DNA from: Achromobacter seleniivolatilans
GTDB lineage: Bacteria; Pseudomonadota; Gammaproteobacteria; Burkholderiales; Burkholderiaceae_B
Direction of reading: 5' to 3'
Length of the DNA stretch: 64,000 bases
Assembly (NCBI RefSeq): GCF_030864005.1
Contig: NZ_CP132976.1
Location: 3,038,001 to 3,102,000 of the forward strand
Position numbers and translations under genes: made by a program. Below the pieces are notes generated by a model. It had not been told where the DNA came from, did not search any database, and was given only the letters and a program-made list of their open reading frames with translations. Position 1 is the first letter of the stretch; every line of letters begins with the position of its first letter. Shown piece after piece: positions 5,727 through 8,585 of this stretch.

Positions 5727-6800
5727 TTACTTGCCGGAGGTCAGCGCCACGCGGCGGCGTTCGCGCACTGCGTGCGCCAGACGGTCAAGCACGGCCACTG
5801 ACGCATCCCAATCGATGCAGCCGTCGGTAATGCTCTGGCCATAAACCAGCGGCTGACCAGGCACCATGTCCTGGCGGCCACCCAGCAGATGGCTTTCCAC
5901 CATAACGCCCACCAGACGGGTGTCGCCCGCTTCCATCTGGCGCGCTACGTCTTCGACCACAAGCGTCTGGTTTTCGGGTTTCTTGCTGCTATTGGCGTGG
6001 CTGGCGTCAACCATGATGCGCTGGGCCAGACCGGCTTTGGAGACGTCCTGGCAAGCCGCATCGACGCTGGCTGCGTCGTAGTTCGGCGTTTTCCCGCCAC
6101 GCAGAATGACGTGGCAGTCTTCGTTGCCAGCAGTCGACACGATGGCCGAATGGCCGCCTTTGGTAACCGACAGAAAATGATGCGGCTGCGACGCCGCTTT
6201 GATCGCGTCGACCGCGATCTTCACATTGCCGTCCGTACCGTTCTTGAACCCCACCGGGCACGACAGACCGGAAGCCAGTTCGCGATGCACCTGGCTTTCT
6301 GTCGTCCGAGCCCCGATCGCCCCCCAGGAGACCAGATCCGCGATGTACTGCGGCGTAATCATGTCCAAGAACTCGCAACCGGCTGGCAGGCCCAGGCTGT
6401 TGATATCCAGCAGCAGTTCCCGCGCCACGCGCACGCCCTTGTTGATGTCGAAGCTGCCGTTCAGGTCAGGATCATTGATCAGTCCCTTCCAGCCTACCGT
6501 GGTGCGCGGCTTTTCGAAGTACACGCGCATCACGATTTCCAGATCGGCGCTCAGGCGGTCACGCACGGGCTTCAGACGCTTTGCATATTCGATAGCAGCG
6601 CGCGTGTCGTGGATCGAACAAGGGCCGATCACGACAATCATGCGGTCATCCATGCCATGCAGGATGCGGTGCATGCCCTGGCGGGCGGCAAACACGGTGT
6701 CGGACGCCTCCTGGGTACACGCGAACTCCCGCATCACATGCGCGGGCGGATTCAGTTCCTTGATTTCTCGAATACGAAGGTCGTCGGTATTGTGTGACAC
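5727..6800 (-). CDS. aroG: 3-deoxy-7-phosphoheptulonate synthase (DAHP synthase, class I)
   Basis: First step of the shikimate pathway: phosphoenolpyruvate plus erythrose 4-phosphate to DAHP, in the cytosol. The 357 residues match the length of AroF/AroG/AroH. Visible motifs are VIGPCSIHD, FEKPRTTVGWKGLINDP, GARTTESQVHRELASGL, GFKNGTDGN, and VDASHANSSKKPENQ. Translation starts with GTG at 6800, with AGGAG eight bases upstream. The upstream leader (6945-7028) encodes a peptide rich in Phe and Tyr codons followed by an intrinsic terminator and a competing hairpin, so expression probably responds to charged tRNA-Phe/tRNA-Tyr supply. Whether the enzyme itself is inhibited by Phe or Tyr cannot be read directly. 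Confidence 0.95.
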   Translation of the reverse strand: MSHNTDDLRIREIKELNPPAHVMREFACTQEASDTVFAARQGMHRILHGMDDRMIVVIGPCSIHDTRAAIEYAKRLKPVRDRLSADLEIVMRVYFEKPRTTVGWKGLINDPDLNGSFDINKGVRVARELLLDINSLGLPAGCEFLDMITPQYIADLVSWGAIGARTTESQVHRELASGLSCPVGFKNGTDGNVKIAVDAIKAASQPHHFLSVTKGGHSAIVSTAGNEDCHVILRGGKTPNYDAASVDAACQDVSKAGLAQRIMVDASHANSSKKPENQTLVVEDVARQMEAGDTRLVGVMVESHLLGGRQDMVPGQPLVYGQSITDGCIDWDASVAVLDRLAHAVRERRRVALTSGK

Positions 6801-6890
6801 GGTACTGCTCCTGGGTTGCCCGCCATCGGGTTCAATTCCCTCGGTCTAGTCCGGGTTCTCTGGTCCGGGTCTAGTCCGATCCGGCGGCAC

Positions 6891-6977
6891 AAAAAAAGCC
6901 GCCAGTTCGCTGGCGGCTTTTTTGGGGGGGATTCTTTCCAAACTTCAGATTGAGCGCGTCCCTTCCTCCGCCAGCGG
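6891..6977 (-). promoter_or_regulatory. Predicted Phe/Tyr attenuator: terminator and competing antiterminator before aroG
   Basis: On the minus strand an 8-bp GC-rich stem (6898-6905 with 6910-6917, loop of four) is followed by seven T residues (6891-6897): an intrinsic terminator 91 nt before the aroG start. The nine bases at 6968-6976, which lie inside leader-peptide codons 18-21, are perfectly complementary to 6908-6916. Those bases include seven of the eight bases of the first terminator arm. A ribosome stalled on the Phe/Tyr codons would leave 6968-6976 free to form the antiterminator; a moving ribosome would cover it and let the terminator form. The hairpin may also end tldD transcripts. 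Confidence 0.8.
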
Positions 6978-7028
6978 CTTCAGAAAAGTATAAAAATAAA
7001 AATAAAAAGCGGGGGACGCGAATTTCAT
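6945..7028 (-). CDS. aroG leader peptide (Phe/Tyr-rich, 27 residues)
   Basis: Short ORF on the minus strand: ATG at 7026-7028, stop TGA at 6945-6947. Residues 8-15 read FYFYFYTF; in all, 5 Phe and 3 Tyr occur among 27 residues. The peptide lies upstream of aroG and immediately before the mutually exclusive hairpins at 6891-6977. This is the same logic as the E. coli pheA leader, but placed before DAHP synthase. A possible ribosome site AGAG lies nine bases before the ATG. The peptide itself is expected to have no function beyond being translated. On the plus strand the same bases look like a TAAAAA simple repeat. Confidence 0.82.
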   Translation of the reverse strand: MKFASPAFYFYFYTFLKPLAEEGTRSI

Positions 7029-7124
7029 GGGAATTGACTCTAGCACAGTTTTTTCAGGCCGTCACGGCAGTTTTATCTTGGAGCCAGCCCAAAATCGAAC
7101 CGGAGCGGCGGCCCGAAACTGGGA

Positions 7125-8585
7125 TCAGGCGGTTCCGCCCACGGTCAGACCTTCCATGCGAATCGTTGGCATACCCACACCAACCGGCACACTCTGGCCA
7201 TCCTTGCCGCACGTGCCCACGCCGGAATCCAGCTGCAGATCGTTGCCGATCATGGTGACGCGGGTCATCGCGTCGGGACCGTTGCCGATCAGCGTGGCGC
7301 CCTTGACGGGATACGTCACCTTGCCGTCTTCGATCATGTAGGCCTCAGACGCCGAGAACACGAATTTGCCGTTCGTGATGTCAACCTGGCCGCCGCCAAA
7401 GTTGACCGCGTACAGCCCGCGTTTGACCGACGACACGATTTCCTCGGGCGGCTTGTCACCAGCCAGCATGTAGGTGTTGGTCATACGCGGCATCGGCAGG
7501 TGCGCGAAAGATTCACGGCGGCCGTTGCCTGTAGCCGCCGTCTTCATCAGGCGGGCATTCAGCGTGTCTTGCATATAGCCGCGCAGGATGCCGTCTTCGA
7601 TCAGCACATTGCGCTGCGTGGCATTGCCTTCGTCGTCGATATTGAGCGAGCCGCGGCGGTCCGGCAGCGTGCCGTCATCCACCACCGTCACGCCCTTGGA
7701 CGCAACACGTTCACCGATACGGCCCGAGAACACGCTGGAACCCTTGCGGTTGAAGTCACCTTCCAACCCGTGGCCCACGGCCTCGTGCAGCAGAATGCCA
7801 GGCCAACCCGATCCCAGCACGACGGTCATTTCACCAGCCGGCGCGGGACGCGCCTCAAGGTTGACCATGGCTTCGTGTACCGCGCGTTCCACATAACCTT
7901 GCAGCATTTCGTCCGTGAAATACGCCAGTCCCAAGCGTCCGCCGCCACCGGCGTGACCCATTTCACGGCGGCCATTGCGCTCGGCGATCACGGTCAGCGA
8001 CAAACGCACCAGCGGGCGCACGTCGGCAGCCAGGCGGCCATCGCTACCGGCGACCAAAATCACGTCGTACTCGGCACCCAAACCGGCCATGACCTGAATC
8101 ACGTGCGGATCACGGGCACGTGCCATGCGCTCGATGCGCTCAAGGAGTGCCACTTTTTCGGGTGCGCTAAGTGTTGCGACCGGGTCGATGTCGGCATACA
8201 GACTGCGGCCCATCTCGGCCTCGACGTGCGCGGCCACTTTCACTTTGCCTGCGCCACGGCGCGCAATGCCGCGCACGGCGTGCGCCGACGACAACAGCGC
8301 GTCCGCCGACAAGGAATCGGAATACGCAAAAGCGGTTTTCTCGCCGCTCACAGCGCGTACGCCCACGCCTTGGCTGATCGAGAAACTACCGGTTTTGACA
8401 ATGCCCTCTTCCAGGCTCCACCCTTCGCTGCGCGTGTACTGAAAGTACAGATCGGCATAGTCGACCTTGTGGGTGAAGATCTCACCCAACGCGCGCGCCA
8501 TATCCGCCTCTGTCAGACCCCAGGGGTCCAGCAACAGCGATTTGGCGGTGGCGAGGGATGCAATAGCAGGATCGATAATTTTCAT
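7125..8585 (-). CDS. tldD: Metalloprotease TldD
   Basis: Cytosolic zinc metalloprotease subunit that works with TldE (PmbA) to degrade unfolded or modified peptides and is implicated in microcin maturation and antitoxin turnover. The 486 residues match TldD length. The zinc-binding HExxxH motif is seen as [13 protein letters not shown] near residue 260, and the C-terminal [27 protein letters not shown] is characteristic. No tldE gene is in this window. Its transcription could end at the hairpin at 6891-6917, which also lies in the aroG leader. Confidence 0.95.

Follow-up and report, generated by a model that had tools for sequence, protein, structure and literature searches.

A widely conserved and apparently uncatalogued aromatic leader peptide and predicted attenuator upstream of aroG

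Entry into aromatic amino acid synthesis in Escherichia coli is governed by the textbook protein repressors TyrR and TrpR. A short reading frame crowded with Phe and Tyr codons, followed by a terminator-like hairpin in front of aroG, raises the question of how the first shikimate step is controlled in Achromobacter seleniivolatilans. The window, meaning the entire 64,000-nucleotide stretch of DNA analyzed here, carries on its minus strand, in this order, a tldD/pmbA-type gene, the leader ORF, the terminator, and aroG (Table 1). The AroG product scores 584.7 bits and passes the NCBIfam AroG cut-off of 568. The original prediction had listed a 27-codon ORF with FYFYFYTF at residues 8–15, a terminator stem with seven T residues before aroG, and a nine-base competing complement within codons 18–21, and all three are found in the sequence as described. 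A run of six Phe/Tyr codons appears a single time in the window and in no shuffle out of 100, and the 6.86-Mb genome contains only one further six-codon Phe/Tyr run, which is a TTC repeat. The same genome encodes a second aroG-like gene (G000:C1:1425765-1429649) that is 58% identical, and no aromatic leader was found upstream of it.

Table 1. Positions of the predicted leader, its RNA elements, and the neighboring genes in the window
Feature	Position	Strand	Basis or remark
TldD/PmbA-type metallopeptidase gene, upstream context, outside the switch	7125..8585	minus	
-35-like hexamer GTGACG, 17 nt before the -10	7060..7065	minus	weaker: the script favored spacers near 17
Extended -10, TG-C-TAGAGT, ending 8 nt before the leader ATG	7037..7045	minus	motif
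Leader peptide ORF MKFASPAFYFYFYTFLKPLAEEGTRSI-stop, 27 codons	6945..7028	minus	sequence; kept in relatives
Region 1, 5' strand of the 1:2 protector stem	7008..7020	minus	fold; not general in relatives
Regulatory codons FYFYFYTF, residues 8–15	6984..7007	minus	sequence, chance controls
Region 2, 5' strand of the antiterminator, CGCTGGCGG, inside codons 18–21	6968..6976	minus	fold, covariation
3' strand of the 1:2 stem, GGGACGCG	6955..6962	minus	fold
Region 3, common to terminator and antiterminator, CCGCCAGCG	6908..6916	minus	fold, covariation
Intrinsic terminator: 14-pair stem 6923-6910/6905-6892, loop CGAA, seven T 6897-6891	6891..6923	minus	
Shine-Dalgarno AGGAG of aroG	6808..6812	minus	sequence
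aroG, class I DAHP synthase, 357 aa, GTG start at 6800	5727..6800	minus	

The RNA elements of the window were examined by folding. Folded alone, the terminator has an energy of -22.2 kcal/mol. The nine bases 6976-6968 (region 2) are the exact complement of 6916-6908 (region 3), which belong to the 5' arm of the terminator, and the predicted antiterminator (2:3) and terminator (3:4) are therefore mutually exclusive. In the antiterminator, part of GGGACGCG is also able to pair with the C-tract at about 6931-6924. A 1:2 stem, which adds to the original prediction, is clear in the window fold; it pairs 7020-7008 with 6972-6968 and 6962-6955 and hides region 2. A simple scan of the window reported neither a promoter-like site nor the terminator of the aroG leader, and we read this as the consequence of a stricter -35 rule and of the U-tail being counted into the stem. 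The locus thus contains a short ORF, whose translation is predicted, with a run of end-product codons, an intrinsic terminator between leader and gene, and an antiterminator that excludes the terminator and starts inside the leader ORF. At the level of sequence this is the complete parts list of a classic attenuator.

The distribution of the element was determined with upstream regions and covariance models. AroG was found in 146 of the 151 genomes of the window's GTDB family. Ninety aroG upstream regions were sampled (the 30 best matches plus 60 picked for spread over genera), and 81 have an aromatic leader and a terminator. The nine family members without the leader include two genomes of 0.8 Mb, the others being 2.0–3.3 Mb. 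One of the nine retains the usual terminator behind a longer, degenerate frame with few aromatic codons, which by eye is a remnant and perhaps a decaying attenuator. A model built from 79 family leaders (R1) finds one full copy in its own genome (E = 2e-20), and the next-best match there (E = 0.48) is the opposite strand of the same terminator. When 300 genomes of the order were searched with R1, 51 gave a match at E ≤ 0.001. We read 44 of these 51 matches (those left out include G414 and G052); all 44 lie upstream of a DAHP synthase, and they span 13 families including the window's own. A further model, R2, matches 120 of the 300 genomes at E ≤ 0.01, many of them at the terminator end only; full-length matches with E below 2e-6 occur in 74 genomes by a hand count that includes the training genomes. 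One genome with a leader before aroG also has a weak second full-length R2 match (E = 5e-4; G712:C136:88462-88590). The class-level search covered 321 genomes and gave matches at E ≤ 0.01 in 35, of which 32 lie outside the order. Ten of the matches outside the order were read, and five are an aromatic leader before a DAHP synthase (three in family f63, one each in f68 and f92). At the other five a DAHP synthase was absent, and these were discarded as chance matches. The leader at the f92 locus is of another type, having FFYFSFF close to its end and a C/G-rich terminator of its own; it precedes a distant DAHP synthase (34% identical) and is perhaps an independent attenuator of the same kind.

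Named genomes were searched with a DNA pattern, which returned at least 119 loci. Among the matches listed, 113 of 119 have the leader; aroG is directly behind it in 111, and two lie at the edge of the available stretch. These leader loci come from genera including Achromobacter, Bordetella, Pusillimonas, and Pollutimonas, and also Xanthomonas, Stenotrophomonas, Pseudoxanthomonas, and Phenylobacterium. Six pattern matches from Roseomonas, Pseudoroseomonas, and Rhodospirillales MAGs have neither the leader nor aroG and were set aside. The family, order, and named-pattern sets overlap, and their counts are not additive. No such leader was found in any of 20 aroG upstream regions picked from 19 other families of the order; the picks were mostly from families without a clear model match, and the result describes patchiness rather than a rate. 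One of the 20 has an aromatic-rich TTG frame that was not counted as a leader. In four others aroG seems, by eye, to lie directly behind the end of a tldD-like gene, and loss or gain of the leader may have occurred within a conserved tldD-aroG gene order.

The databases were searched for a known family corresponding to the element. An Rfam scan of the window gave no family at threshold, T-box and riboswitches included. The Phe_leader model (RF01859) scores 23.9 bits against a threshold of 55, and the match, 6889-6954, does not contain the aromatic codons. Four leader peptides compared with Pfam and NCBIfam gave no family each, short peptides offering HMMs little to match. These data identify the predicted attenuator as a widely conserved and apparently uncatalogued element.

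Alignment across relatives, including Achromobacter and Bordetella, shows that the Phe/Tyr codons are kept while the rest of the leader drifts, as the original prediction had anticipated. The collection comprises 125 leaders from 63 genera; 35 contain Phe, Tyr, and Trp, 88 contain Phe and Tyr without Trp, and two contain Phe only. Their aromatic stretches hold 593 Phe, 250 Tyr, and 36 Trp codons, with a median of eight aromatic residues per leader. Leader L149 was analyzed with a start position upstream of its probable GTG. The claim that the device reads Phe and Tyr is supported by the kept codons, with the qualification that 35 of 125 leaders add Trp. A leader of mixed composition could still answer to one regulatory amino acid, probably Phe, with the Tyr and Trp codons as passengers. 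Two leaders are indeed Phe only, and transcription of Corynebacterium glutamicum aroF, whose leader reads Phe-Tyr-Phe, rises under Phe but not Tyr limitation according to a review (PMC11802643). Against this reading, Tyr is present in 123 of the 125 aromatic runs and Trp in 32, and the peptides at the Xanthomonadaceae loci checked keep FWYY in 27 of 27 cases and FYFWYY in 25. We regard control by a single amino acid as unlikely, at roughly one chance in four. Codon choice sets the leaders apart from the gene that they precede. At the same 54 loci, TTT accounts for 206 of 266 Phe codons in the leaders compared to 73 of 369 in the aroG genes, and TAT for 81 of 131 Tyr codons compared to 104 of 330. 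Leaders are mostly TTT/TAT, whereas the aroG genes are mostly TTC/TAC. This preference may serve slow decoding or may keep the region unfolded.

The competing pairings were then compared among the leaders. The 2:3 pairing is better than with a base-shuffled region 2 (p ≤ 0.05) in 101 of 125 leaders. A significant 1:2 stem was found in 43 of 121 leaders (40 in f1 and three in f31), and a general 1:2 protector stem was not found across the leaders. The bases flanking the core were evaluated with 100 distinct region 2/3/4 triples from 123 of the 125 leaders; two leaders have no region-2 word and were omitted from the flank, frame, and second-helix tests. At position 1 next to the core, 2:3 is paired in 82 of 100 triples compared to a maximum of 76 in 2000 shuffles, and 4:3 is paired in 76 compared to a maximum of 65. 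Position 3 of 2:3 is paired in 74 triples compared to a shuffle maximum of 66. Positions 2, 4, and 5 of 2:3 and positions 2–5 of 4:3 do not exceed all shuffles, and position 1 of 2:3 is unpaired in 18 of the 100 triples. Position 1 swaps U-A and C-G in both 2:3 and 4:3, and regions 2, 3, and 4 therefore change as a set. The C-G form recurs in families f3, f9, f11, f19, f39, and f49.

Double changes were counted in an alignment of 65 sequences (A2), which was also used for a slide test. Cells changed on both sides number 40 in 3:4 and 23 in 2:3, values reached by none of 500 shuffles. The number of base pairs with a double change is three in each helix, and 313 (3:4) and 296 (2:3) of 500 shuffles reach that. 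Sliding the partner strand lowers paired cells from 95.5% to at most 61.5% in 3:4 and from 88.1% to at most 52.5% in 2:3. At slides of +1 to +3 the 2:3 pairing still has 16–21 double-changed cells, with far fewer paired cells. The shuffle and slide controls retain the shared ancestry of the sequences. These data indicate that the predicted terminator (3:4) and antiterminator (2:3) pairings covary in relatives. A second antiterminator helix would pair the stretch of purines that follows GGCGG with pyrimidines ahead of the terminator. When partners are swapped between families, the mean energy goes from -8.6 to -7.5 kcal/mol; with one leader per family, permuted pairs are equally good in 77 of 1000 trials, and f31, f19, and f11 run contrary. 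The evidence for this second helix is suggestive.

In region 2, the word GG(N)GG occurs in each of the three reading frames of the leader (109, 8, and 6 of 123), and it is therefore the RNA word rather than the peptide that is kept. This bears on the proposal that the nascent leader peptide detects an aromatic amino acid in free form, or brings about ribosome arrest in the manner of TnaC, with no role for codon starvation. PLAEEG-like residues are common after the aromatic run within the family, as such a peptide might require, but in 14 of 123 leaders a different frame turns GG(N)GG into different residues while the aromatic codons stay. We consider a peptide sensor very improbable. The terminated leader RNA or the peptide might also act in trans, for which the trp leader of Sinorhizobium provides precedent only (available part of PMC7298713). 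Outside its aromatic run the peptide differs from family to family, and we give an additional action in trans a slim chance.

The sequence between tldD and the leader contains a promoter-like motif. An extended -10 of the form TGnTAnnnT ends 6–9 nt before the leader ATG in 75 of the 81 family leaders, and just three more matches to it occur elsewhere in the 50 gaps scanned. The best -35-like hexamer lies 17–18 nt from the -10 in 64 of 81, with a script that favored 17. An SD-like 4-mer precedes the aroG start in all 62 loci tested; one precedes the leader ATG in 19 of 62, and all 19 vanish once the TAGGAT hexamer is masked. Leaders in other families lack an SD-like 4-mer in 41 of 42 cases. The leader in the window and in its GTDB family is probably leaderless, because the extended -10 lies 6–9 nt before the ATG and an SD site is missing. 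This would not hold in all lineages: families f22, f43, f49, and f39 have the same -10 distance as the window's family, and that distance was not seen in f31, f7, f10, f3, and f19. The motif also bears on the idea that the hairpin is the end of the tldD transcription unit, the ORF a by-product, and aroG read from another promoter. The hairpin does sit in the gap after tldD, and some relatives without the leader show by eye the same tldD-aroG order. A conserved promoter-like motif between tldD and the leader, Phe/Tyr codons conserved across 125 leaders from 63 genera (Phe only in two leaders), and a region 2 that covaries with the terminator arm from inside the ORF all speak against it, and we judge this explanation to be extremely improbable.

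An attenuator acting on the first shikimate step, as originally proposed, is thus supported by conserved codons and covarying pairings, and we hold it very probable that the element is a ribosome-mediated transcription attenuator of aroG. From the ORF, its codons, the promoter motif, and the exclusive pairings with their conservation we infer a start point, stalling, read-through, and the counting of Tyr beside Phe. Transcription from a sigma-70-type promoter would begin at the leader AUG or no more than a few bases from it, and the ribosome would load on the leader without a Shine-Dalgarno site. With charged tRNA-Phe or tRNA-Tyr in short supply, the ribosome would stall on codons 8–13, cover region 1, and leave region 2 free, and 2:3 would pair as region 3 emerges, block the terminator, and allow aroG to be transcribed. 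With both tRNAs charged, the ribosome would run over region 2 to the stop codon, 2:3 would be blocked while region 4 is made, and the 3:4 terminator would form and end transcription before aroG.

Constrained folding was used to model these states. With the ribosome on codon 11 and region 1 covered, 2:3 forms once region 3 is out, and with the ribosome on region 2 there is no 2:3. The minimum-energy fold of the full-length RNA has the terminator in every state tried, so switching would have to be kinetic, a matter of timing. The outcome in the trp attenuator likewise depends on timing. As long as region 4 has yet to be made, 2:3 is also obtained for the free RNA and for a ribosome resting at the stop codon, the latter because region 2 ends 20 or 23 nt upstream of the stop, a spacing found in 64 of the 81 family leaders. 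In the fed state, termination would therefore have to depend on the moving ribosome or on the 1:2 stem, one of which is assumed to block 2:3. We advance tentatively, at somewhat less than even chances, the broader reading that a leaderless attenuator uses a single RNA to add up the charging of two, or of all three, of the aromatic tRNAs at the common first shikimate step, is kept in at least 13 families of the order, occurs together with its gene in Xanthomonadaceae and Phenylobacterium as well, and is the main transcriptional control of DAHP synthase there.

Entry into aromatic synthesis in many members of the order and in Xanthomonadaceae may be set by an RNA switch instead of a repressor. 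Leaders in which Phe, Tyr, and Trp codons stand side by side make it possible to study the weight that a single stalled-ribosome sensor gives to each of several amino acids. The element also yields ready covariance models and annotation for more than 100 genomes, including Bordetella and Xanthomonas.

E. coli pheA (pheL) and pheST are preceded by a Phe-rich leader, competing hairpins, and a terminator. The aroG leader shares these parts, but pheA and pheST control concerns later, Phe-specific genes, whereas aroG encodes the first step. The Sinorhizobium meliloti trpL mRNA is leaderless and begins at or near its AUG. The aroG leader would resemble it in the predicted start of its leader-peptide mRNA at or near the AUG; trpL has Trp codons and precedes the trp operon, and here Phe/Tyr codons precede aroG.

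DAHP synthase genes themselves have been linked to attenuation. Neshat 2014 reportedly dealt with the AroR leader of C. glutamicum aroF. For aroF of E. coli and Shewanella, the available text of PMC2659441 lists an 'attenuator sensing tyr-tRNA' and cites E. coli work; this is a DAHP synthase too, and no Phe/Tyr leader is displayed in that text. The uORFC-13-1 motif before Acholeplasma aroF combines a terminator with a predicted uORF in which one or more codons specify Phe (PMC8632094, available part). Like the element described here it places a uORF and a terminator before DAHP synthase, but it comes from another phylum and is a prediction only. A term search of the main text of PMC2965389 returned neither aroG nor aroF, and the available parts of PMC12125101 and PMC4176332 hold nothing to the point. 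No description of a leader before aroG of Betaproteobacteria or Xanthomonas was found in the open-access literature, subscription literature being outside the search. The closest precedent is C. glutamicum, where the AroR leader before aroF, a DAHP synthase gene, carries Phe-Tyr-Phe and acts by ribosome-stalling attenuation (PMC11802643, PMC4046766, PMC3890552, as described in their available parts). Attenuation of a DAHP synthase itself is thus already known, with the same logic at the first shikimate step. The two systems belong to different phyla, and the Phe-Tyr-Phe of AroR compares to a median of eight aromatic residues here. What the aroG element adds to this known kind, judged from its sequence, is probably a leaderless leader and, in some lineages, codons for all three aromatic amino acids.
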